A stretch of 64,000 nucleotides of DNA from Aquaspirillum serpens DSM 68 (GTDB lineage: Bacteria > Pseudomonadota > Gammaproteobacteria > Burkholderiales > Aquaspirillaceae). The first letter of the stretch is position 1. Every line of letters begins with the position of its first letter. Under the pieces are notes generated by a model, which was given only the letters and a program-made list of their open reading frames with translations, was not told the DNA's origin and ran no database searches. The position numbers and the translations under genes are program-made. This document shows positions 2,432 through 28,652 of this stretch, piece by piece. The DNA lies in contig NZ_ATVC01000005.1 in assembly GCF_000420525.1 (NCBI RefSeq), forward strand, positions 1 through 64,000, given 5' to 3'.

Positions 2432-5320
2432 ATGTTCAAAGACCCTACTGAGCATTCGCTCGCCCGCATTCAACTTCTTGGTATGTTGGGCATTTCTTTG
2501 CTGATTTCGTTGGTTTTCAGCTTCTATTTCCTGTGGGCACAACGAGAAGATTTTGACTCTACCCTCACCTCAGTGAAGGAAAGGGTATTGTTAGAACAAC
2601 AAAATATTCTGGCAAAACAGATAGAAACCATTCAAAACGATCTGGACTACCGCCGCAGCAATACCGAATCGATTTTACGGCGCGAGATCCGACAACGTGT
2701 CAACGATGCCTATCAAATTGCCGAGAGCCTTTACCAACAAAATCGTCATAGAATGAGCGATCAACAAATTAAAAGCTTAATTGTTGAATCATTGCGCTCA
2801 CTGCGGTTTTTTGAGGGTCGTGGTTATTATTTTATTGATACCCTAGATGGGCTATGTGTGTTATTACCCACCGCACCACAATTAGAAGGCACTTCATTGT
2901 GGGATAACCGCGATCCCACCGGCTATTACATTATGCGTGGTTTAGTTGAAGCCACCAAAAACCCACAACAAGCTGGCTTTTCTCGCTATTATTGGTATCC
3001 GCCTAATGAAAAAATCATGCGCGAGAAAATTTCTTATGTCCGCACGTTTCAACCTTTTAATTGGGTGATTGGTGCAGGTGAATATATTTATAACGTAGAA
3101 CGCGATTTACAAAAAGATGCTTTACAGCAATTACGTTCTATTCGTTTTGGCAATGATGGTTATATTGTTGTTTTCGATCAAAATAAAAGAGTTTTGGTTT
3201 CGCCTTCTCGCATTAAATCAGAAGGTAAATCGGTCGATCAATTAACCGGCCTCGAGAAAAAATCTGTTGATAAAATTTTACAACAAGCGCAATTGGGCAA
3301 TGGTTTAGTCAAATATACTTGGTATCGCCCGGGGACATCGATTGCCACAGAAAAATTCTCTTATGTCGCCAATTACAAGCCGTGGGGCTGGACACTGGTA
3401 ACAGGGGTTTATTTAGGTGATGTCGATTCACTGATGGCAAACCAGCGGTCGGCAATGGAAAGCCGCCTTGAAGCACGGATTATGGTTGGTATCATCATTA
3501 CGATTGCAGTGCTTTTGCTAGCCACTATTTTCTCTTGGGGTTTCTCCCACAAAATGCGCTCGCTGATCCGCCGTTATCAAGCCAGCTTGGCCCAAAAAAA
3601 TGCCGAGCTGGAAGAAAACGCAAAAAGATTGAAGTTATCAGCAGCGGTATTTGAAAGCGGCTCAGAAGCGGTGATGATCAGTGATAGGGAAAATCGAATT
3701 GTAACCGTTAACCAACCTTTTACCAAAATCACTGGCTATGCAGCTCATGAAGTGATTGGTAAACGGCCTGATCTATTTTCTTCTGGCTACCATGATGCAG
3801 AATTTTACCGGCGGATGTGGGAAAAACTAAAAAGTACAGGGCATTGGGATGGTGAAATTTGGAACCGGCGCAAAGATGGCTCAGTATTTCCAGAGTGGTT
3901 ACGCATTGCAACAGTAAAAGATATGTCAGGCAATATTGAGAATTATATTGCCACCTTCTCCGATATTTCTGAGCGAAAAAATGCTGAAGAACAAATTCGT
4001 CATTTAGCATTTTATGACCCATTAACTGAATTACCCAATCGCCGTTTGTTAATGGATCGTTTACAACAGGCTTTGGTACATAGCGAATATGCCAACACAC
4101 ATGGCGCTGTTTTATTTCTTGATCTTGATAACTTCAAATCATTGAATGACACCAAAGGGCATGACTTCGGTGATTTATTGCTGATGGAGGTTGCCCATCG
4201 CTTAAAACTACATGTCCGAGAAACCGATACCGTTGCTCGTTTAGGCGGTGATGAATTTGTAGTGATGTTGGAAGATCTTGCCGAAGATTTTGCAATGGCG
4301 GTCAGCGAGGCAGAAAAAATGGCCAAACATCTGATCTCGGTGGTGCAACACGAATTTTCTTTACAAGGTTATGCCTATCATTGCTCATGCAGCATTGGCG
4401 CCAGCATGTTTTCTGGTCAGCAAGAAACAGTGGAGGAGCTGATTAAACATGCGGATACGGCAATGTATCAAGCCAAGGCCGCTGGTCGTAATACCACTCG
4501 TTTCTTTGTCCCTGCGATGCAGGCAGCGTTGGAATCACGTTTACGGCTCGAAGCCGAACTGCGGCAAGGGATCCAAGAAGGACAGCTGCGGGTGTTTTAT
4601 CAAGTGCAGATGGGATTGCAACAGCAAGTGTTGGGAGCTGAAGCATTAGTGCGCTGGCAACACCCCGAACGTGGCATGGTCTCGCCAGCCGAGTTTATTC
4701 CACTGGCCGAAGAAACTGGTTTGATTCTTCCCTTGGGTTCGTGGGTGTTACGTGAAGCCTGCCGACAGTTGGCGATTTGGTCACGCTCACCGATGACTGC
4801 TGAATTGCAAATTGCCGTCAACGTCAGTGCCAAACAGTTCCATCAGGCCAGTTTTGTCGAGGAAGTGCGCAATTTGGTCACGGAGTTCGGTTTCCCGCCT
4901 TCTCGCTTAAAGTTAGAACTCACCGAAAGTTTGTTATTGGACAATATCGGCGATTCGATTCAACACATGCAAGCACTACGCGCATTGGGGATTCAATTCT
5001 CGATGGATGATTTTGGGACTGGCTATTCTTCACTCACCTATATCAAGCGACTACCGATTGACCAGCTGAAAATTGACCAGTCATTTGTGCGTGATCTCCC
5101 CGCCGATCGTGATGATGAAGTGATTGTGCAAGCGATTATTGCGATGGCACATAGCCTGCGTTTGGAGGTAATTGCAGAGGGGGTAGAGACCGAAGAGCAA
5201 CGGGCGTTTTTAGAAGCCCAAGGTTGCTATGCTTTCCAAGGCTATTTGTTTGGCCGTCCAATGCCAATCGAACAGTTACAAACGCTATTAGAAAAAGCCG
5301 CCACACCATCGCTATCCTGA
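2432..5320 (+). CDS. Membrane Cache-PAS-GGDEF-EAL cyclic-di-GMP protein
   Basis: A 962-residue sensor for cyclic-di-GMP turnover. In order it has a membrane segment (about 15-35), a periplasmic Cache-type region with two similar lobes (RGYYFIDTLDG near 130 and DGYIVVFDQNKRVLVSP near 245), a second membrane segment (about 348-372), a PAS domain (about 400-510), GGDEF (about 525-690) and EAL (about 705-955). The GGDEF motif is intact and preceded by RETD, a canonical inhibitory I-site. The EAL motif is also intact (GAEALVRW), so both activities are possible and the net one cannot be read from sequence. No clear ribosome site precedes the ATG. A Met at residue 18 is an alternative, but it would remove part of the first membrane segment. 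Confidence 0.9.
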   Translation: MFKDPTEHSLARIQLLGMLGISLLISLVFSFYFLWAQREDFDSTLTSVKERVLLEQQNILAKQIETIQNDLDYRRSNTESILRREIRQRVNDAYQIAESLYQQNRHRMSDQQIKSLIVESLRSLRFFEGRGYYFIDTLDGLCVLLPTAPQLEGTSLWDNRDPTGYYIMRGLVEATKNPQQAGFSRYYWYPPNEKIMREKISYVRTFQPFNWVIGAGEYIYNVERDLQKDALQQLRSIRFGNDGYIVVFDQNKRVLVSPSRIKSEGKSVDQLTGLEKKSVDKILQQAQLGNGLVKYTWYRPGTSIATEKFSYVANYKPWGWTLVTGVYLGDVDSLMANQRSAMESRLEARIMVGIIITIAVLLLATIFSWGFSHKMRSLIRRYQASLAQKNAELEENAKRLKLSAAVFESGSEAVMISDRENRIVTVNQPFTKITGYAAHEVIGKRPDLFSSGYHDAEFYRRMWEKLKSTGHWDGEIWNRRKDGSVFPEWLRIATVKDMSGNIENYIATFSDISERKNAEEQIRHLAFYDPLTELPNRRLLMDRLQQALVHSEYANTHGAVLFLDLDNFKSLNDTKGHDFGDLLLMEVAHRLKLHVRETDTVARLGGDEFVVMLEDLAEDFAMAVSEAEKMAKHLISVVQHEFSLQGYAYHCSCSIGASMFSGQQETVEELIKHADTAMYQAKAAGRNTTRFFVPAMQAALESRLRLEAELRQGIQEGQLRVFYQVQMGLQQQVLGAEALVRWQHPERGMVSPAEFIPLAEETGLILPLGSWVLREACRQLAIWSRSPMTAELQIAVNVSAKQFHQASFVEEVRNLVTEFGFPPSRLKLELTESLLLDNIGDSIQHMQALRALGIQFSMDDFGTGYSSLTYIKRLPIDQLKIDQSFVRDLPADRDDEVIVQAIIAMAHSLRLEVIAEGVETEEQRAFLEAQGCYAFQGYLFGRPMPIEQLQTLLEKAATPSLS

Positions 5321-5332
5321 TGGTAGGCGGCT
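5291..5332 (-). terminator. Terminator of pdxH nested in the 3' end of the convergent GGDEF-EAL gene
   Basis: AGCCGCC (5296-5302) and ACCATC (5305-5310) pair with GATGGT (5319-5324) and GGCGGCT (5326-5332). The run of A residues at 5292-5296 gives a T tract when read on the minus strand, downstream of pdxH. The stem straddles the stop codon of the plus-strand gene. Confidence 0.65.
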
Positions 5333-5342
5333 AGACACTGAC

Positions 5343-5984
5343 TCAAGGCGCTAAACGGCTCCGCTGCCAGCCCTCAGAGGTGCGTTGATATAACACACGA
5401 TCATGCAGCCGGCTGGGACGGCCTTGCCAAAATTCAATTCGTTCGGGTGTGACGGCATAGCCTCCCCAATGCGGTGGACGGGGGACATGTAGGGGATGAC
5501 GCGCCGCAAACAACGCAGCGCGGGTAACCAATTCGGTTTTGCTGCTGATTTCACGGCTTTGTTCCGATGCCCACGCCCCCAAGCGGCTTTGGTAGGGGCG
5601 ACTGTGGAAATAGGCATCGGATACGTCGTCTGATACTTTTTCTGCCCGTCCTTCAATGCGGACTTGACGTTCTAACTCCGGCCAAAAAAAGGTCAATGCC
5701 ACATCAGGATGACTGGCAATCGCCTGTCCTTTACGGCTGTCATAGTTGGTGTAAAACACCAGTTGGCCAGCCTCTATGCCTTTTAGCAATACCATCCGCG
5801 CACTCGGTTTTCCATCGGCATTCACCGTAGCAAGGTGCATCGCCGTCGGTTCATGCACTTGCGAGGTAATCGCCTCATTGAGCCATATTTCAAACTGTGC
5901 CACGGCATCGGCCAAACACTCTTCCGGCGACAATTCTTTCTTGCTGTAATCTTGGCGAATATCTGCCAAATTCGGTGTACTCAT
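5343..5984 (-). CDS. pdxH: Pyridoxamine 5'-phosphate oxidase
   Basis: FMN-dependent oxidation of pyridoxamine/pyridoxine 5'-phosphate to pyridoxal 5'-phosphate, the last step of de novo synthesis and of salvage. The 213-residue protein matches the family length. Family hallmarks include [10 protein letters not shown] (FMN/substrate region), [23 protein letters not shown], the [16 protein letters not shown] stretch and the conserved C-terminal RLAP. Cytosolic. It is followed by its own terminator and lies behind benE on the same strand (35-base gap), although no functional link is evident. pdxJ, another gene of this pathway, is at 29.0-29.8 kb. Confidence 0.96.
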
Positions 5985-6018
5985 CGTCTGTCACTTTCTT
6001 TAAAGAATCCTGTTTTGC

Positions 6019-7200
6019 TTAGTTACGGCGTGGTTGACTATGCAAAACTAAGCTGGCCACACCACCTGCCACCAAGCCCCAAAATGCCGACCCAATGCCC
6101 CACAAGGTCAATCCTGACGCCGTGACCAAAAAGGTAATCAAAGCCGCTTCGCGTTCTTGCTCATCGCGCATGGCCGTGGCTAAACCATTGCCAATGGTGC
6201 CGAGCAATGCCAACCCAGCAATGGCCAAAATCAAGGTTTTCGGCAGCGCACTGAATAAAGCGGCAACTGTCGCACCAAACACCCCGATTAACAGATAAAA
6301 CACCCCAGCGGCAACCGCAGCCACATAACGGCGTTGGCTGTCTTCGTGTGCTTCACGGCCCATACAAATAGCAGCAGTAATGGCGGCGAGATTCAACGCA
6401 TAAGCACCAAACGGCGCCAGCAACAGCGTTACCGTTGAAATCCAACCAATTAAGGGTGAAATCGGCGCTTCATAACCCGATGCCCGAATCACTGCCACCC
6501 CTGGGATATTCTGCGAAGCCATCGTCACCATAAACAACGGCAAGGCAATCCCGATCATCGCTGATAATGAAAAACTGGGTTCAATCCACACCGGTAAGGC
6601 TACCGCGAAGGCAAAACGTTCAAAGTGTAATTGGCCTTGCACCGCCGCAATCACCGTCCCCACGACCAATGCCAGAATCACCGCATAGCGCGGCAAAAAA
6701 CGCCGACCCAATAGATAGACCACACACATGCTCAATACCATTGCTAGTGCATGTTGCAGCGAGACAAACACATCCAGACCAAAACGCAATAACACGCCGG
6801 CCAGCATCCCCGAGGCCAACGACAACGGGATACGCTTTAATGCACGCTCGAACCAACCAGAAAAACCACTCACCGCCATCAGCACAGCACACACAATAAA
6901 TGCGCCAATCGCCTCAGCCATCGGCACCCCAGAAGCCGAAGTAATTAGCATGGCTGCCCCCGGAGTAGACCATGCGGTCACCACGGGTACACGGTAGCGC
7001 AATGATAAGACGATACAAGTCACCCCCATACCGATACCCAATGCCCACATCCATGACGCCATCTGGGCTGGCGTTGCACCTACGGCATGTCCCGCTTGAA
7101 ACACCAATGCTGCCGAGCTGGTAAACCCAACCAACACCGTCACAAAACCGGCCAAAATAGCCGAGAGCGAGCAATCTCGCCATACATCACGCAATCGCAT
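6019..7200 (-). CDS. benE: BenE/YdcO-family benzoate:proton symporter-like membrane protein
   Basis: A roughly 393-residue integral membrane protein with about a dozen hydrophobic segments, resembling the BenE/YdcO family of proton-coupled aromatic-acid transporters. Typical stretches are TAWSTPGAAM, VTMASQNIPGVAVIRASGY and FGAYALNLAAITAAICMG. The frame is open to 7230, but the ATG at 7200 is preceded by AAAGGAAAG at a good distance and starts MRLRDVW just before the first membrane segment, so I place the start there. Substrate is inferred from family only. No benzoate catabolic genes are nearby and many family members are uncharacterised. It is divergent from the TonB receptor. Confidence 0.85.
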   Translation of the reverse strand: MRLRDVWRDCSLSAILAGFVTVLVGFTSSAALVFQAGHAVGATPAQMASWMWALGIGMGVTCIVLSLRYRVPVVTAWSTPGAAMLITSASGVPMAEAIGAFIVCAVLMAVSGFSGWFERALKRIPLSLASGMLAGVLLRFGLDVFVSLQHALAMVLSMCVVYLLGRRFLPRYAVILALVVGTVIAAVQGQLHFERFAFAVALPVWIEPSFSLSAMIGIALPLFMVTMASQNIPGVAVIRASGYEAPISPLIGWISTVTLLLAPFGAYALNLAAITAAICMGREAHEDSQRRYVAAVAAGVFYLLIGVFGATVAALFSALPKTLILAIAGLALLGTIGNGLATAMRDEQEREAALITFLVTASGLTLWGIGSAFWGLVAGGVASLVLHSQPRRN

Positions 7201-7410: not shown

Positions 7411-9591
7411 ATGATGAAATGCCTGAAAGAGTCTTCTGCAGTCCACAGCTTTGCTAAAGTTCCACTCAGTGTTGCCACTGTGGCAGGTTTATTAGGCACT
7501 TTGGCCGCCCCCGCTTTTGCTGATACTGCCGCTAACACCCAAGTTTTACAGCCGGTGAATGTGACGGGTCAAAACAGCACTGGCCGCACACCACAAAATG
7601 GCTATGCCGGCAATTTTACCAGTGTTGGCAAAGGCAGCCAGCAACAACGCGATATTCCACAATCCACCACCGTCATTACACAAGAAGTGTTGAAAGATAC
7701 TGGTGCAACCAGCTTAAAAGATGCGTTGAGAACTGTCAGCGCCATCACATTTAACGCTGGTGAAGGCGGTCGGACGGGTGATATTTTGGCTTTGCGGGGT
7801 TTCTCTGCGACCACCGATTTGTTCCTCGATGGGGTGCGTGATGCCGGTCAATACAACCGCGACACCTTTAACATTGAACGTGTAGATGTACTGCGTGGCG
7901 CCAGCTCAATGTTGTTTGGTCGAGGTTCGACAGGTGGGGTGATTAACCAAGTATCGAAACGGGCGCATTTAGAGAATGAACGCACGGTTGGTTTAACTGT
8001 CGGCACCAGCGATTTCTATCGTGTTGAAGCGGACATCAACCAAAAATTAGATGACACCTCCGCCCTGCGGGTGAATGTCATGGGGCAAGATGCCGAAAGC
8101 TTCCGCTCGGGTGCAACCAGTGACCGGTGGGGCGTTGCACCAACTGTTCGCTTTGGGATCAATACGCCAACGGAAGTTGAGCTGTCTTATTTCTATATGA
8201 AGGAAAAAAATGTCCCCGATTATGGCGTGCCATTTAATTCCTTTACCCGCGAGCCTTTGGATGTGCCGGTGGATCGTTTCTATGGCTTGAAAAACCATGA
8301 CTACGAACACACTGAAACTCATATTGCCACCGCCACCATTCAACATCGCTTCAGCCCAACAGCCAGCGTAAAGAACACCCTGCGTTATGCAGAATACGAA
8401 CGTGATGTGTGGCCAACCGCGCCACGTATCAGCCTCGGCGGGGCCTCGTCGATTAGCGATAAAACCACGGTCAACCGCAGCCGCCCCGGTCGCAGTGGTA
8501 AAGATGAAGTCTGGTCGAACCAAACCGATTTTTCGTTCCGATTATTTACTGGCGACATCAAACATGATGTGTTGGCCGGCTTAGAATTGGGTCGTGAAAA
8601 ATCGAATACCTTGCGTTGGGCTAACGTCAATGGTGCGGTTCCTCCAACAACGGTCGGCAACCCCAATAATAGTGACAACATCACCAATGCCACCAAAGTC
8701 TATAGCACAGATGTCAATTTCACGGCAGACACGGTATCGGCGTATGTGCAAGATATGATGTCGATCACGCCAGAATGGAAAGTGCTGTTGGGCGCACGTT
8801 GGGATCGTTTCTCGGGTGATTACACCACAGTCAATCTGGCCAATAAAACCAAGGAAGACACTTCGCGTACCGACTCGATGTGGAACTGGCGCGCAGGCCT
8901 GATTTGGCAACCTGATGCACAACAGTCTTATTACATTTCCTATGGCACATCGTTTAACCCTTCTGGTGAAGCCTATGCCTTAGATCCTCGTGGTGCCAAT
9001 ACGCCACCGGAGAAAAACCGTAACTATGAAATTGGCGCGAAGTGGGATTTGTTTGAAGGTGATTTGTTGCTGAGAACTGCGATTTTCCGTACCGAAAAAA
9101 CCAACGAGCGTAATACCGACCCGTTGGTAACCGATGTGTATCTGTTGTCGGGTGCCCGTCATACCGATGGTATCGAGTTGGAAGCAGCAGGTCGTATCAC
9201 TGACAAGTGGAAGGTGTTTGCTGGTATCGCTTTGATGAACCCGAAAATCACCAAAGCCGCCGGTTCTGCTAAAGGTACCGAGGGCAATGCGCCAGCCAAT
9301 GCCCCTGAATACACTGCCAACTTGTGGTCAACCTACGAAGTGGGTAATGGTTGGAAAGTTGGCGGTGGCTTCAACGCCGTGGGCCGTCGTTTTGTTAACG
9401 CGAACAACGTCAACAAGATGCCGTCTTATGTCCGTTGGGATGCGATGGTGGGCTATGACGCTAAGACATGGGATGCACAGTTAAACATCTACAACGTGTT
9501 TGACGAGAAACATTACGAAGGTCTGTATGGCGGTCATGCCTTACCAGGCACCGAGCGTTCTGCCCACGTCAAAGTCAATTTCAAATTCTAA
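7411..9591 (+). CDS. TonB-dependent siderophore receptor (Fiu/catecholate type)
   Basis: Outer-membrane gated barrel importing ferric siderophores with TonB energy. From the ATG at 7411 it is 726 residues. An N-terminal signal peptide (hydrophobic core VATVAGLLGTLAAPAFA, cleavage before DTAANT) is followed by a plug domain (RDIPQSTTVITQEVL, LRGFSATTDLFLDGVRD, ERVDVLRGASSMLFGRGSTGG). A barrel ends in HVKVNFKF with terminal Phe. The frame is open upstream to 7087, but those residues lack signal-peptide character. The next gene encodes a PKHD hydroxylase, a partner usually found with Fiu/PiuA-type receptors, which supports a catecholate or monomeric siderophore substrate. Exact ligand unknown. 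Confidence 0.92.
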   Translation: MMKCLKESSAVHSFAKVPLSVATVAGLLGTLAAPAFADTAANTQVLQPVNVTGQNSTGRTPQNGYAGNFTSVGKGSQQQRDIPQSTTVITQEVLKDTGATSLKDALRTVSAITFNAGEGGRTGDILALRGFSATTDLFLDGVRDAGQYNRDTFNIERVDVLRGASSMLFGRGSTGGVINQVSKRAHLENERTVGLTVGTSDFYRVEADINQKLDDTSALRVNVMGQDAESFRSGATSDRWGVAPTVRFGINTPTEVELSYFYMKEKNVPDYGVPFNSFTREPLDVPVDRFYGLKNHDYEHTETHIATATIQHRFSPTASVKNTLRYAEYERDVWPTAPRISLGGASSISDKTTVNRSRPGRSGKDEVWSNQTDFSFRLFTGDIKHDVLAGLELGREKSNTLRWANVNGAVPPTTVGNPNNSDNITNATKVYSTDVNFTADTVSAYVQDMMSITPEWKVLLGARWDRFSGDYTTVNLANKTKEDTSRTDSMWNWRAGLIWQPDAQQSYYISYGTSFNPSGEAYALDPRGANTPPEKNRNYEIGAKWDLFEGDLLLRTAIFRTEKTNERNTDPLVTDVYLLSGARHTDGIELEAAGRITDKWKVFAGIALMNPKITKAAGSAKGTEGNAPANAPEYTANLWSTYEVGNGWKVGGGFNAVGRRFVNANNVNKMPSYVRWDAMVGYDAKTWDAQLNIYNVFDEKHYEGLYGGHALPGTERSAHVKVNFKF

Positions 9592-9617
9592 TGTGAGCTG
9601 ATTTCACACTGAACCAC

Positions 9618-9646
9618 AACACGGCACAGCTTTGTGCCGTGTTTTT
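9618..9646 (+). terminator. Intrinsic terminator/attenuator after the TonB receptor
   Basis: AACACGGCACA (9618-9628) and TGTGCCGTGTT (9633-9643) form a perfect 11-bp stem with a GCTT loop, followed by TTT. It lies between the receptor and the hydroxylase, so it may limit downstream transcription. Confidence 0.8.
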
Positions 9647-9668
9647 CATATACCAGAAAGGTCATATT

Positions 9669-10349
9669 ATGTTGCTCCATATTCCTGAAGTGCTCAGTGG
9701 TGAATCGCTACAACAGGTGCAACAGCTATTGGAACAAGCGGAATGGGTCGATGGTAAGGTCACCGCTGGCACCCAATCGGCCCAAGTCAAAAACAATATG
9801 CAGTTACCGGAGGATAGCCCCGCCGCCCAAGCCGCCGGCCATATTATTTTGACGGCTTTGGGTCATCACCCCATTTTTATGTCGGCTGCCTTGCCAAAAC
9901 GGGTGTTTCCGCCACTGTTTAATTGTTATCAAGGTGGGATGGCCTTTGGCAATCATGTTGATAATTCTGTCCGCACCATTGCCCGCACTGGCGAGCATAT
10001 TCGTACCGATGTGTCGTGCACTTTGTTCTTGGCCGAGCCCGACAGCTATGAAGGCGGAGAATTGATTGTTGAAGACACCTATGGCGTGCATTCGGTGAAG
10101 CTACCCGCCGGCCATGCAGTGATTTATCCATCAACGAGTCTGCATCGGGTCGAGCCGGTTACCAAAGGCGCCCGCGTGGCTTCTTTCTTTTGGCTGCAAT
10201 CGATGATTCGTGATGACAGTAAACGGGCACTGTTGTTTGATATGGATATGAACATCATGCGCTTGCGTGAAACCTACGGCGACCAAGAAACCATCATCGG
10301 CCTTACTGCGACTTATCATAATCTGGTGCGGATGTGGGCGGAGATTTAA
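9669..10349 (+). CDS. piuC: PKHD-type Fe(II)/2-oxoglutarate hydroxylase (PiuC/YbiX family)
   Basis: A 226-residue Fe(II)- and 2-oxoglutarate-dependent dioxygenase of the PiuC/YbiX family. These genes usually accompany Fiu/PiuA-type TonB receptors and are iron-regulated. Their physiological substrate is not established. Visible iron ligands are the HVD triad start in [10 protein letters not shown] (about residues 95-105) and the distal His in SLHRVEPV (about 158). [13 protein letters not shown] is also typical. The start is the ATG at 9669 ([11 protein letters not shown]), preceded by GAAAGG. The frame extends to 9639 but that region is the terminator hairpin. Confidence 0.92.
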
Positions 10350-10415
10350 CGCGACTCGCGAACTGACAAGCGGGCGGTGTATAGTGATGGGTTTCCTGTA
10401 CTGCTGGCTTTGGAC

Positions 10416-13244
10416 ATGACCGACTTTATCCGTATTCGTGGTGCGCGTACGCACAATCTGAAAAATGTTGACTTGGACTTGCCGCGTCACCAGCTGATTG
10501 TGATGACGGGTCTTTCTGGCTCGGGCAAATCTTCGCTCGCTTTTGATACGCTCTATGCCGAGGGCCAGCGCCGTTATGTCGAATCCCTCTCGGCTTATGC
10601 CCGTCAATTCCTGCAAATGATGGAAAAGCCGGATGTCGATTTGATTGAAGGTCTATCGCCGGCCATTTCAATTGAACAAAAAGCCACCAGCCACAACCCC
10701 CGCTCAACCGTCGGCACCGTTACTGAAATTCACGATTACCTGCGCCTGTTATTTGCCCGTGTGGGTACGCCAATCTGCCCCGATCATGGCCAGCCGCTGG
10801 CCTCACAAACCGTGAGCCAAATGGTCGATCATGTCTTGTCCTTACCCGAAGACACCAAACTGATGGTTTTGGCACCGGTGGTGATGGGGAAAAAAGGCGA
10901 GAATCACGATTTATTTGAAGAATTACGCGCCCAAGGCTTTGTTCGAGTGCGGGTTGATGGTGAAGTTTATGACATCGACGCCATCCCCAAACTGGAAAAA
11001 AACCGCAAACACACCATTGAAGTGGTGATTGATCGTTTAAAAGTCCGTGCCGATAATCAGCAACGGTTGGCAGAATCGTTTGAAACAGCACTTGGTCATG
11101 CCGAAGGGCGGGCGATTGCTGTGGAAATGGATAGCGGTAAAGAACACTGGTTCTCTGCCAAGTTTGCCTGTCCGGTGTGCAGTTATTCCTTACCAGAATT
11201 AGAACCGCGCTTATTCAGCTTTAACAATCCAATGGGGGCATGTCCCAGTTGCGATGGGCTGGGGCATATGAGTTTTTTTGATCCAAAACGGATTGTTGCC
11301 CATCCTAGTCTTAGCTTAGCCGCCGGTGCTATTAAGGGATGGGACCGCCGCAACCAATTTTATTTTCAGATGCTACAAAATCTGGCTGAACACTATCAGT
11401 TTGATTTAGAAACCGCATTTGAAGACCTGCCAGAAGCGGTACAACAGGTGGTGCTGTATGGTTCTGGGCACGAGGAAATTGCGTTTACCTATCTCAATGA
11501 ACGTGGCACGCGTTTTTCTCGCAGCCATCCGTTTGAAGGGATTGTCTCTAACTTCGAGCGGCGCTATCGCGAAACCGAATCCAGCGCGGTGCGTGAAGAA
11601 CTCGCCAAATATCAAAACAGCCAAGTATGTCCAAGCTGCCAAGGGTCGCGGTTACGCAAAGAGGCACGATACGTCGAAGTCGGCGGCCAGACCTTACATC
11701 ACATCAACCAATGGCCGTTAAAAAATACCCTCGCTTGGTTTGAACAGTTGCAGCTTGTCGGCCACAAACAAACCATTGCCAGCAAAATCGTCAAAGAAAT
11801 TGCCGACCGCCTAGGATTCTTGGTGAATGTCGGTCTCGATTATTTATCACTCGAACGCTCCGCCGACACCTTATCCGGCGGTGAAGCCCAACGCATTCGC
11901 CTCGCCAGCCAAATTGGTTCGGGATTAACGGGGGTGATGTATGTGTTGGATGAACCTTCGATTGGTTTACATCAACGAGATAATGACCGTCTGTTAACAA
12001 CGTTGATGCGGCTGCGCGATTTAGGTAACAGCGTGATTGTGGTTGAGCATGACGAAGACGCAATTCGGGCGGCTGATTTTGTGGTGGATATGGGGCCTGG
12101 TGCTGGTGAACATGGTGGAAAAATTTTAGTGGCTGGCAAACCAGAAACGGTTGCCAACCACCCGGACTCCATCACCGGCGCTTTTTTATCCGGTCGGCGC
12201 AGTATTCCCACGCCGACTGACCGCCGCGCCCCCAGCGATAAAGTATTAAAAATTCATGGCGCCAGCGGCAATAACTTAAAACAGGTTGACCTGACCTTGC
12301 CGGTGGGGTTGTTTGTCTGTGTGACCGGTGTATCGGGGTCTGGCAAATCGACGCTGATCAACGATACGCTCTATCACGCTGTCGCACATCATCTTCACAA
12401 TAGCCAAACCGAAGCCGCACCGTATCAAGACATCACGGGCTTAGAGCATTTTGATAAGGTCATTAACGTTGACCAATCACCAATTGGCCGCACGCCGCGT
12501 TCCAATCCCGCCACCTACACCGGTTTATTTACCCCAATTCGGGAATTGTTTGCTGGTGTACCCATGAGCCGCGAGCGTGGCTATGGCCCTGGCCGCTTCT
12601 CATTTAATGTCAAAGGTGGACGTTGCGAAGCGTGCCAAGGCGATGGTGTCTTGCGTGTGGAAATGCACTTCTTACCCGATATCTATGTCCCTTGTGATGT
12701 CTGTCATGGTAAACGCTACAACCGTGAAACATTAGATGTGCAATATAAAGGCAAAACGATTGATGAAGTGTTGCAAATGACAGTGGAACAGGCGCTGGCT
12801 TTTTTTGCGGCTGTGCCGACTGTCGCTCGTAAACTACAGACTTTAATGGATGTCGGTTTGGGCTATATCCGGCTGGGACAATCTGCCACCACCCTATCCG
12901 GCGGCGAGGCGCAACGGGTTAAGTTGGCATTGGAACTCTCGAAACGCGATACCGGTCGAACGCTGTATATCTTGGATGAGCCCACCACCGGCTTGCATTT
13001 CCACGATATCGATTTATTGCTCAAGGTTCTGCATCGTTTGCGTGAACATGGCAACACGGTGTTGGTGATTGAGCATAATTTGGATGTGATTAAAACTGCC
13101 GACTGGATTATCGATCTTGGGCCAGAAGGGGGTGCTGGAGGGGGGATGATTCTCGCCAATGGTACACCAGAACAGGTCGCCGCCATGAACAACAGCCACA
13201 CCGGCCGCTATTTGGCAAAAGTCTTAGGCATGGCAACACCCTAA
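10416..13244 (+). CDS. uvrA: Excinuclease ABC subunit A
   Basis: The damage-recognition ATPase of nucleotide excision repair. It loads UvrB at lesions. The protein is 942 residues with two ABC modules: Walker A motifs GLSGSGKSS (about 30) and GVSGSGKST (near 640), and signature motifs [12 protein letters not shown] and [12 protein letters not shown]. Zinc-finger cysteines are seen in CPVCSY...CPSC and in CEACQG...CDVCHG. The frame begins at 10377 but the conserved start is [15 protein letters not shown] at 10416. I looked for a LexA box immediately upstream and saw no convincing CTG-N10-CAG element. Confidence 0.97.
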
Positions 13245-24340: not shown

Positions 24341-25639
24341 ATGGATTTATTCGAGACCTTTCCCTCAACCACGCTGCCCTTAGCCGAACGGATGCGCCCG
24401 CAACATCTGGATGAAGTCATTGGGCAATCGCATTTGCTTGGTGCAGGTAAACCATTACGGTTGGCTTTTCAAGCACGAAAACTGCACTCGATGATTTTTT
24501 GGGGGCCACCTGGGGTGGGTAAAACCACTTTGGCAAGACTCACCGCCCATGCTGTTGATGCAGAATTTATTGCGCTCTCGGCAGTATTTTCCGGTGTGAA
24601 AGAGATTCGTGCGGCAATGGAGCAGGCCGAACACTATCGGCAACAGAATAAAAAAACCATTTTGTTCGTCGATGAAATTCACCGTTTTAATAAGTCGCAA
24701 CAAGATGCGCTATTGCCTTATACCGAGAGAGGCGTCATCACCCTACTCGGTGCCACCACCGAAAACCCCTCATTTGAAGTGAATTCGGCTTTGCTGTCGC
24801 GGGCACAAGTCTATGTTTTGCAATCCCTCACCGATGATGAATTACAACAGCTATTAGCCCGCGCTCAACAAGTGGCGATGCCAGATTTGATTTTGGATGA
24901 AGTGGCACGCACTACGCTGGTTGCCTATGCCGATGGTGATGGCAGAAAATTGCTCAATTTGGTTGAACAGTGCGCCACTGCTGCACAAGCGGCAGGGGTT
25001 CACAATATTGATGCGGAATTTATCCACAACGCCTTAACCCTCAACCAGCGCCGGTTTGATAAAGGGGGCGAGTTTTTCTACGACCAAATTTCGGCTTTAC
25101 ACAAGTCAGTACGCGGCTCTAATCCCGATGCCGCCTTATATTGGTTAACTCGAATGTTAGATGGTGGGGCCGATGCTAAGTATTTGTCGCGGCGGATTAT
25201 TCGGATGGCGTGGGAGGATATTGGGCTGGCCGATCCAAGAGCGATGCAAATTGCCAACGATGCCGCCACCACTTTTGAGCGTTTAGGCAGTCCTGAGGGA
25301 GAATTGGCCTTAGCGCAGGCAGTGATTTATTTAGCTGTCGCCGCAAAGAGTAATGCGGGGTATGTGGCTTACAATCAGGCCAAGGCTTTTGTAAAGCAGG
25401 ATAAAAGCCGAGAAGTCCCCGTTCATCTACGCAATGCGCCTACCAAGTTGATGAAGGAACTGGGCTATGGCCATGAGTACCGCTATGCGCATGATGAACC
25501 CAATGCTTACGCCGCCGGGGAAAACTACTTCCCAGAGGGGATGGCCGCCCCGAATTGGTATCAACCTGTACCAAGGGGGCTGGAAATAAAAATTGCGGAA
25601 AAACTCGCTGTTTTGCGGAAGTGGGATGAAGAAGGATAG
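24341..25639 (+). CDS. rarA: Replication-associated recombination protein A (RarA/MgsA)
   Basis: AAA+ ATPase related to clamp loaders and RuvB that acts at stalled forks and single-strand gaps. 432 residues from the ATG at 24341 ([20 protein letters not shown]). The frame extends back to 24305 through the terminator, which argues against the upstream start. Motifs: Walker [10 protein letters not shown], Walker [18 protein letters not shown], sensor [19 protein letters not shown]. The C-terminal part ([34 protein letters not shown]) is RarA-specific. Confidence 0.95.
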
Positions 25640-25746
25640 TCACAAGCCGATTAGGTTTGAGTCTATCGATATGGTCAGCTTCGGTACTACCCTCGAATAA
25701 ATTTGAGAAAAATGTTTTATTAACCACCATAAAAAATGCCAATTTA

Positions 25747-25783
25747 TTTACCTAACGATATTTTTTAATCGGTTAAAGGTAAA
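25747..25783. promoter_or_regulatory. Imperfect inverted repeat upstream of the ATPase/TOPRIM pair
   Basis: TTTACCT (25747-25753) and CGAT (25756-25759) match ATCG (25768-25771) and AGGTAAA (25777-25783) as an inverted repeat, 50-85 bases upstream of the ATPase gene. It could be an operator for the pair or a weak rarA terminator. Confidence 0.35.
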
Positions 25784-25831
25784 TCATGGAAAAATAGTGC
25801 TTTACTCATAGTATCCTTACAAGGAATAACA

Positions 25832-26947
25832 ATGAATATACATAAGCTAGAGATCAAAGGTTTTAAAAGTATTGCACATATTAAGCTTGGTAATAGTTCA
25901 CCCTTTCTGGTGTTAGCAGGTGCAAATGGCTCAGGAAAAAGCAACTTAGTTGATGCACTTGCATTCCTTGGTGCAGTTATAAAACGAGGGGTTGTTCAAG
26001 CGGTTCGTGAGTTTGGTGGGTTTAACCAAATTCACTGTTTCAAGTTTCGCAAAGAGCAACGGACAACGATGTCATTCACACTAGAAATAGATATAAACAG
26101 TGTGCACTATCATTATGACTTAACGATCCGATCGCTAGAAAACTTACCAGAAATCCAAGAAAGTTTAAAAGTCAATGGTAGCATATTGATTGATCGTAAA
26201 AACTCCAGTGAACCTCAAGTCCAATTAGGTGATCGTGAGGGGTTACAAAAATTAACAAGCTATCCTAAGGAAATGTCAGCGATGATGTTATTAAGCGATA
26301 CTGCACTTTATCGCTTTCTGACTAATATTTGTGTTTTCCGTATTGACCCGTTTGCAGCAAAAGAACCTGATAATGCTGCGGCCGATGCCACAGCGCTTGA
26401 TCCAAACGGCAAAAACATCGCAACGATGTTATCTGTGCTTGAAAAAGACGATGATTTTCGCGAACAGGTATTAGAGTGGATCGAACTCATCGTTCCGGGT
26501 ATGGAAAACGTGAAAACAGAGAAGCAAAGGCTGGATGCTTCAACCGTAATAACATTTAAAGAAGAAGGCACCAAGGCACGATTTCCAGCTTCACTAATAT
26601 CAGATGGTACAATTTACGCTTTATGTATATTAACTGCCATTCTAAGCCGCGCACGGGAATATGGAATTACCATCATTGAAGAACCTGAGCGTGGCATTCA
26701 TCCGAAGGCTATCGCCGAACTCGTTCAACTTATGCGTGAAAATGCCTCTACCCAGCACCCTGTGTTCATCACCACTCATAGCGAATCAGTTGTGAGAAGT
26801 TCGGAGGTAGAGGAACTTTATTTTGTGAGTAAAAAAGAGGGAAAAACACAAATTCAAAGTGCTAAAACCTCTGGTATTGACAAGAAAAAAATTGCATTAG
26901 ATACAGCATGGTTAACAAACCTATTTGATGGGGGTTTGCCATGGTAA
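25832..26947 (+). CDS. SMC/OLD-like AAA family ATPase of a two-gene accessory module
   Basis: A 371-residue ABC/SMC-type ATPase of the AAA_21/AAA_15 group found in bacterial defence operons. It begins MNIHKLEIKGFKSIAHIKL, the usual RecF/OLD-like start. Walker A is GANGSGKSN (about 31-39). Walker B is TIIEEPERGIHP (about 282), with the D-loop-like acidic pair and His-switch region FITTHSESVV (about 308). No nuclease domain is fused. AAGGAA precedes the ATG. The stop overlaps the next start (ATGGTAA), so the two are translationally coupled. Base composition is visibly more AT-rich than in the flanking rarA and nagZ. Role as an ATPase sensor in phage defence is inferred. Confidence 0.85.
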   Translation: MNIHKLEIKGFKSIAHIKLGNSSPFLVLAGANGSGKSNLVDALAFLGAVIKRGVVQAVREFGGFNQIHCFKFRKEQRTTMSFTLEIDINSVHYHYDLTIRSLENLPEIQESLKVNGSILIDRKNSSEPQVQLGDREGLQKLTSYPKEMSAMMLLSDTALYRFLTNICVFRIDPFAAKEPDNAAADATALDPNGKNIATMLSVLEKDDDFREQVLEWIELIVPGMENVKTEKQRLDASTVITFKEEGTKARFPASLISDGTIYALCILTAILSRAREYGITIIEEPERGIHPKAIAELVQLMRENASTQHPVFITTHSESVVRSSEVEELYFVSKKEGKTQIQSAKTSGIDKKKIALDTAWLTNLFDGGLPW

Positions 26948-27531
26948 CAAATGAACGTAAAAAAATAGGCTTTATTGTTGAAGGGGGTAGTGAAAAAATT
27001 ATTATTGAGTCGCCACAGTTTAGGGCATTCTTGAACAAACATGGTTATGAACTGGTAACACCAGTTATCGATGCCGAAGGCGGGGGTAATTTACTACCAC
27101 AAAATATTGAGGAATTTATTAGCCGACTTGAACAAAAACAAGTAGATGCTATTTATGTTTTGACTGATTTAGAAGATGAATTGCACATCGAGACGGTCAG
27201 AAAAAGGGTGAGACACACCAAGGTTACCTTTGCTTTCATTGCTGTCAAAGCACTTGAAGCATGGTATTTAGCAGATACCGATGCGATGAATACTTGGCTA
27301 GGCACCCAAGATTTTTATGAATCAGAGCCAGAGAAAACAGTGGGCAAGCCATGGGATAGATTAAAAGAAATTGCAGCTGAAAAGGGTAAGCGTGGCCCTG
27401 GACAAAAAATATCTTTTGCAAAGAGAATCACTAAATATTGGCATTTCGCTATTGAAAATGCTGCAAAACATGAAGCTTGCCCGAGTGCAGCGGAGTTGAT
27501 CAGTCATTTTGAAAAATCAACTCACAGATAA
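26941..27531 (+). CDS. DUF4276/RloB-like TOPRIM-fold protein, partner of the ATPase
   Basis: A 196-residue protein that overlaps the ATPase gene by 7 bases. It starts KKIGFIVEGGSEKI, with the TOPRIM-type glutamate after the first strand, followed by VLTDLEDE with clustered acidic residues as in the DxD motif of TOPRIM nucleases. FAFIAVKALEAWYLADTDAM is typical of DUF4276-like proteins, which accompany AAA_21-type ATPases. By analogy with OLD, PARIS, AbiL and RloAB partners it may be a nuclease released or activated by the ATPase. That is inference. It converges with nagZ. Confidence 0.75.
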   Translation: MVTNERKKIGFIVEGGSEKIIIESPQFRAFLNKHGYELVTPVIDAEGGGNLLPQNIEEFISRLEQKQVDAIYVLTDLEDELHIETVRKRVRHTKVTFAFIAVKALEAWYLADTDAMNTWLGTQDFYESEPEKTVGKPWDRLKEIAAEKGKRGPGQKISFAKRITKYWHFAIENAAKHEACPSAAELISHFEKSTHR

Positions 27532-27560: not shown

Positions 27561-28652
27561 CTAATGCGCCTCCCCGACTTTCACACCAGAACGTAATTGC
27601 TCTGGTGGAATGGCGAGGGCGGCGACGGTGGTTTGCATCGCAATAAAGTCTGCTTCGGTTAACCGTTGCTGTGCCGCTTCGATAGACAACTGCCCCGCCA
27701 TCGCAGCCAAACGCGGCGCTAAAGAAGACGGAATCGCACGCTGTTCACCCCATGCGTTCAAAAGCGTCTGTGCCAAATCAGGACGGTTACACACCAACAC
27801 CATGTCACAACCGGCTTGCAAAGCCAACACAGCCCGTTCCACCACGCCACCGGCGCCTGCAGCCCCTTCCATGCACAAATCATCGCTGAAAATCACGCCT
27901 TCAAAACGCAATTGTTGCCGCAGAATGTGTTGCAACCAGAAAGCAGAAAAACCAGCAGGTTGATCATCAACCGCCGGATATACCACATGGGCCGGCATCA
28001 CCGCAGCCAACCCCTGTTGAGCCAAAGCAGAAAAAGGCTGTAAATCCGCCGCTGCAATCGTGGCAAAATCACGCTCATCCACTGGAATTGCATGATGAGA
28101 GTCTGCTTCTACCCAGCCATGCCCCGGGAAATGTTTGCCACACGCCGCCATCCCACCGCGAGCTAAGCCACGTATCAACGCCTGTGCTAACACCGTTACC
28201 GTGCTTGCCTGCAAAGCAAAAGAACGGTCGCCAATCACCCCAGAACGGCCCCAGTCTAAATCTAAGACTGGCGTAAAACTCAAATCGACGCCCACTGCAC
28301 GCAATTCAGTCGCCAACACTTCGCCACATTGCTCTGCCAAAACCAGCGCCTGTTCAGGGGTTTGTTGCCATAACTGCCCCAATACCCGCATCGGCGGCAA
28401 ATGCGTAAAACCGGATAAAAAGCGTTGCACCCGCCCACCTTCATGATCGACTGCCACCAATAAAGCAGGAGATCGCACCGCATGAATCTCTGCCACCAAA
28501 TCGCGAATTTGTGCTGGCGAGAGAAAATTACGCCGGAACAAAATCACCCCGCCGACTTGTGGGTGACACAGTAATTCGCGTTCATGGGCTTGTAGCTCGG
28601 TGCCCTGAATATCCAACATTAAAGGGCCGCGTGGCAAAGATAAAATTGGCAT
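27561..28652 (-). CDS. nagZ: Beta-N-acetylhexosaminidase (peptidoglycan recycling)
   Basis: Cytosolic GH3 enzyme that removes N-acetylglucosamine from GlcNAc-anhydroMurNAc peptides during cell-wall recycling. 363 residues. Motifs: VDHEGGRVQRF, KHFPGHGWVEADSHHAIP with the catalytic His of the NagZ loop, and FSDDLCMEGAAG with the nucleophile Asp. It begins MPILSLPRGPLMLDIQG, as in proteobacterial NagZ, and lies 4 bases after acpS. It is the distal gene of the rpoE-to-nagZ block. Confidence 0.95.
   Translation of the reverse strand: MPILSLPRGPLMLDIQGTELQAHERELLCHPQVGGVILFRRNFLSPAQIRDLVAEIHAVRSPALLVAVDHEGGRVQRFLSGFTHLPPMRVLGQLWQQTPEQALVLAEQCGEVLATELRAVGVDLSFTPVLDLDWGRSGVIGDRSFALQASTVTVLAQALIRGLARGGMAACGKHFPGHGWVEADSHHAIPVDERDFATIAAADLQPFSALAQQGLAAVMPAHVVYPAVDDQPAGFSAFWLQHILRQQLRFEGVIFSDDLCMEGAAGAGGVVERAVLALQAGCDMVLVCNRPDLAQTLLNAWGEQRAIPSSLAPRLAAMAGQLSIEAAQQRLTEADFIAMQTTVAALAIPPEQLRSGVKVGEAH

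Follow-up and report, generated by a model that had tools for sequence, protein, structure and literature searches.

Two overlapping genes in the 64-kb stretch of DNA analysed here (the window), HEC-01A (gene A; 25832-26947, + strand) and HEC-01B (gene B; 26941-27531, + strand), are a full-length and probably functional copy of HEC-01, a catalogued candidate anti-phage system. Gene A encodes a 371-aa OLD/SMC-type ABC ATPase (Pfam AAA_21/AAA_15) and gene B a 196-aa DUF4276 protein predicted to be a nuclease of TOPRIM fold, and the general reading adopted here, to which a probability of about 0.7 is assigned, is that of a defence module in which the ATPase controls the nuclease. As one more stand-alone copy of a candidate defence system that is already on record, the pair is ordinary as a discovery; being compact, intact and located outside BREX, it makes the ATPase-DUF4276 mechanism testable free of BREX.

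The assignment to HEC-01 is carried by profile matches that span nearly the whole of both proteins. The product of gene A matches the PADLOC model of HEC-01A (PDLC04176) at 595.6 bits (E 1e-179) over residues 1-371/371, and that of gene B matches HEC-01B (PDLC04185) at 295 bits (E 6.6e-89), with residues 7-192 aligned to positions 2-187/188 of the model; homologues of the two genes are likewise full-length HEC-01A and HEC-01B matches. Other named PADLOC systems match A at far lower scores (NsnB 111 bits, AriA 108, AbiLi 97), and B exceeds the Pfam gathering cut-off for DUF4276 (PF14103; 34.7 bits against 30.2). No RloB or DUF4435 match was found in the PADLOC and Pfam HMM searches, and the NCBIfam search of A and B gave no equivalog above cut-off. 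HEC denotes a Hma-embedded candidate, and HEC-01 is included in PADLOC-DB 2 (Payne et al. 2024, bioRxiv 10.1101/2024.01.29.577857, cited in PMC12111858). Antiviral activity has been reported for several HECs, such as HEC-04 and HEC-06 (PMC12111858, PMC12988326), and a search of a literature library for HEC-01 found no report of its activity. The earlier note had described the pair as a candidate uncharacterised anti-phage system, a description that holds for the mechanism only, the system itself being already named as a candidate in PADLOC. Its reading of an ATPase with a TOPRIM-like effector, distinct from standard PARIS, is borne out by the Pfam, PADLOC and structural matches.

The pair is flanked by rarA (24341-25639) and the convergent nagZ (27561-28652), in the housekeeping surroundings and with the AT-rich composition that had been noticed at the outset. 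Its GC content of 39.9% compares with 49.6% for the window and 48-54% for the neighbouring genes, and its GC3 (0.33 for A and 0.30 for B) with 0.44-0.51 for those neighbours; 0.6% of 1.7-kb windows across the 64 kb are equally AT-rich. Flanking direct repeats or tRNA genes that might serve as insertion marks were not seen around the pair. A likely ribosome binding site, AAGGA (25821..25825, + strand), precedes the start of A by 6 nt, judging from sequence. The two reading frames share the 7 nt ATGGTAA (26941..26947, + strand), where the Trp-stop end of A holds the start codon of B, and this overlap recurs as [AG]TGGTRA, 7 nt long and at the same place (A ending in Pro-Trp-stop), in 9/9 close homologues. 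Such conservation suggests translational coupling and a fixed stoichiometry of the two proteins. The imperfect inverted repeat ATTTACCT...AGGTAAAT (25746..25784, unstranded; arms 25746-25753 and 25777-25784), which had been placed in the promoter region, is real and may be an operator or hairpin, with a DNA hairpin z of -3.3 for a stretch picked after the fact. Little can rest on it, since a perfect 8-bp repeat arises in 20% of shuffles of the intergenic stretch upstream of A and the promoter search there gave no match. This intergenic DNA is unique within the genome, and an Rfam search gave no match.

Gene A encodes an ABC ATPase that resembles OLD and Rad50 and lacks none of the catalytic motifs, which are all encoded on the + strand. 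The Walker A motif GANGSGKS (25919..25942; residues 30-37) is intact, and the ABC signature-like SDGT (26600..26611; residues 257-260) invariant, in 11/11 homologues, while the IIEEPE portion of Walker B, ITIIEEPE (26666..26689; residues 279-286), and the H-loop TTH (26771..26779; residues 314-316) are conserved in 11 homologues. Structural matches of the AlphaFold model (pLDDT 82.7) include Rad50 (Z 20.0, aligned over 284 residues), PtuA from retron/Septu complexes (Z 18.4) and the heads of SMC proteins, and Foldseek with the same model gave 1.9e-13. No TOPRIM is fused to the protein, in agreement with its first description as an SMC/OLD-like ATPase that lacks a nuclease domain.

In the canonical TOPRIM layout, a Glu follows strand 1 and a D-x-D/E motif follows strand 3. 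The product of gene B, the model of which (pLDDT 84.9) displays an alternating beta-alpha architecture, models as such a fold. Its acidic motif EGGSE (26980..26994, + strand; E14 and E18) lies at the end of strand 1 (residues 7-13), with E14 and E/D18 each kept in 9/9 copies, and its D76-L-E78 (27166..27174, + strand) at the end of strand 3 (residues 70-76), with D76 and E/D78 kept in all aligned copies that retain the region. The conserved DUF4276-type segment KALEAWYLAD (27247..27276, + strand; residues 103-112) bears K103, E106, W108 and D112 in 9/9, and a conserved basic/glycine segment, RGPGQK (27391..27408, + strand; residues 151-156; G152 in 9/9, P153, G154 and K156 in 8/9), may possibly contact nucleic acid. 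The FIVEGG, DLED and KALEAWYLAD signatures and the length of 196 residues were all as originally noted. The top structural match of the model is the hypothetical protein PH0156 (Z 8.0), and the best functionally named matches are the C-terminal TOPRIM regions of OLD proteins (Z 7.5, 7.5, 7.2 and 6.9 over 157-159/196 residues); further down, among unrelated Rossmann-like folds, come PARIS AriB (Z 5.7) and, at Z 5.0-5.2, a small TOPRIM protein with bound Mg. Each match with Z < 8 is borderline alone, and the TOPRIM assignment draws on the recurring TOPRIM nuclease matches and the placement of the acidic residues together, not on any single Z. Foldseek alone with this model gave no match at E <= 0.001, and a PDB sequence search found no relative of B. 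The concern that B might lack a TOPRIM fold and acidic site does not apply to the protein as modelled.

The TOPRIMs of OLD and Gabija act on DNA, and a DNA-targeting ATPase-nuclease of that kind, in which A and B would remain one complex and B would nick or degrade phage or host DNA, not tRNA, is a serious though doubtful alternative. It draws on the DNA-acting OLD domains as the best functionally named matches of B and on the resemblance of A to DNA-binding Rad50/SMC heads; however, A and B are two distinct proteins, B is small and there is no partner helicase, an arrangement closer to PARIS, and the substrate cannot be read from a common TOPRIM fold.

The pair is patchily distributed. Gene B was found in 2/40 genomes searched, namely this genome and one other (G005), the latter being the 1/5 other family genomes with a copy, at another locus. 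Across the class it was found in 6/369 genomes, mostly as weak matches, and in a phylum sample in 7/398; the pair is present in 26/5,426 E. coli genomes. A search bearing on whether the published Salmonella BREX 'PARIS' genes are HEC-01 gave matches in 3/392 family genomes, and early scans of genomes and viruses that started from individual sequences gave no matches. A conserved core gene pair is ruled out by the presence of B in 2/40 genomes and its absence from the rarA and nagZ loci examined. The rarA-nagZ adjacency is not preserved in the family relatives examined, and the genes beside rarA and nagZ there differ from the pair. The rarA 3' end holds defence genes twice in the family, HEC-01 in the window and, in a relative (L117; G005:C1:878500-888500), an Eco29kI-type restriction-modification pair (4303-6630) that follows rarA and has a duplicated 105-residue rarA 3' end behind it, and next a gene that we read as serS.

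Decayed copies of HEC-01B occur at L031 (8948-9421, without about residues 66-93, the D76 region), at L030 (2421-3005, frame break) and at L140 (6755-7057, stop codon), and the G1065 copy is broken. Such decay elsewhere (L031, L030, G1065) would be in keeping with a window pair that is a non-functional remnant of horizontal acquisition, a reading that we regard as very improbable for genes that are full length, retain all catalytic residues, a ribosome site and the coupling overlap, and evolve under purifying selection: relative to the L027 homologues, dN is 0.21 for A and 0.27 for B, well below a dS that is saturated.

A working defence module also fits the neighbourhoods in which other copies lie, which agree with the mobile, defence-associated character proposed earlier. 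The pair directly follows the BREX gene pglX in 26/26 E. coli copies; the three examined copies for which both flanks are annotated have pglX on one side and pglZ on the other, as does an Enterobacteriaceae copy (G1141), and in p4M18F pglX precedes the pair and brxL follows it. At another locus (L028), a BREX-1 pglX lies directly upstream of the pair; there, over positions 8001-11790, the order is pglX, the HEC-01A/B pair, a repeat of 43 residues similar to a portion of PglX, an ATPase gene and a PDC-M25B gene. These are stacked modules, the first of which perhaps arrived together with a copy of the target gene's end. OLD-ABC/TOPRIM pairs have been described as BREX backup effectors (PMC12839542), and in Salmonella D23580 PARIS is located inside a BREX island (PMC11341690). 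From this setting the pair might be taken for an accessory or backup effector that depends on BREX and is stranded at the window locus. That is unlikely, as stand-alone or non-BREX contexts, with conserved motifs and purifying selection, include the window, G005, G180, L027 (where a Mrr endonuclease lies directly upstream), L029 and phage contigs (L055, L123); the search for BREX proteins within the 64-kb window gave no match, and the pair stands alone. One of these phage contigs (L055, 6001-7571), which bears primase/helicase and DNA polymerase genes, encodes a full-length HEC-01A with a chimeric B in which E14 and D76/E78 are retained and the C-terminal half is missing, possibly a decoy or counter-defence. 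A further region (L121, 5257-8600) contains two tandem ATPase (AAA_21) + DUF4276 pairs along with a ThsB TIR gene.

A mobile, overlapping gene pair with one probably toxic predicted nuclease and a controlling partner could also be a toxin-antitoxin or addiction module, maintained for its own sake, and AAA_21 carries the label 'putative AbiEii toxin, Type IV TA'. That label belongs to a generic ATPase model, however, and both the repeated embedding in defence operons and the size of A, a large ATPase like defence sensors, make this idea improbable, although toxin-antitoxin and defence ideas can overlap.

For the defence module itself, a mechanism can be proposed from family membership, folds and motifs, the conserved overlap, patchy spread and defence context. 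HEC-01A, as an OLD-type ABC ATPase, would act as sensor and controller, its ATP-bound heads assembling into a complex or oligomer that keeps HEC-01B inactive. Once it detects something made by the phage, perhaps an anti-restriction protein, A would release or activate B as a two-metal TOPRIM nuclease; a trigger of this kind would account for the repeated BREX location of HEC-01. B would then cut a nucleic acid required for growth, most likely host tRNA in the manner of AriB of PARIS, and the infection would abort. By analogy, tRNA is named as the specific target tentatively, and RNA is preferred over DNA only modestly, because the nearest functionally named fold of B is an OLD nuclease. The pglX-adjoining E. 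coli copies add evidence that HEC-01, as PARIS, is a backup to restriction-type defence. A bolder and rather speculative extension would make HEC-01 a general fallback for when such defences fail. A would sense an anti-restriction protein that is not among the known triggers of PARIS, and the RNA cut by B, whether a set of tRNAs or some other kind, would differ from that of AriB; if true, DUF4276 would represent a new class of infection-triggered RNase.

Standard PARIS, Gabija and OLD are ruled out by their defining features (a B of DUF4276, not DUF4435, type; no GajB; two ORFs). AriB of PARIS is DUF4435-type, and PARIS is activated by Ocr or Ptr proteins. The window pair shares with PARIS a two-gene ABC ATPase + TOPRIM effector design, a known BREX-island location and a structural match of B to AriB (Z 5.7), whereas the solved AriA has 464 aa against 371 for A, and B is a DUF4276 protein of 196 aa with no match to DUF4435 at E<=1 in Pfam or to an AriB model in PADLOC. 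In PARIS, AriB is kept bound by a hexamer of AriA, from which a phage trigger frees it to cut tRNA (PMC12409363). OLD family nucleases likewise combine an ATPase of this type with a TOPRIM domain (to which B is matched at Z 6.9-7.5) but join them in a single polypeptide, not two ORFs. Gabija (GajA/GajB) follows the same ATPase + TOPRIM logic, yet A has no fused TOPRIM and its neighbours are rarA and nagZ, not a helicase (GajB). The ABC ATPases of AbiL, RloAB and Menshen belong, broadly, to the class of A (AbiLi 97 bits, NsnB 111 bits), although B has no clear match to their partners (AbiLii E 0.03; no RloB or NsnC match). AriA models match A weakly, at 108 bits against 596 for HEC-01A, and it is with HEC-01 that the pair shares both genes at full length and in the same order and pairing, differing in that it lies alone between housekeeping genes, outside a host defence operon.
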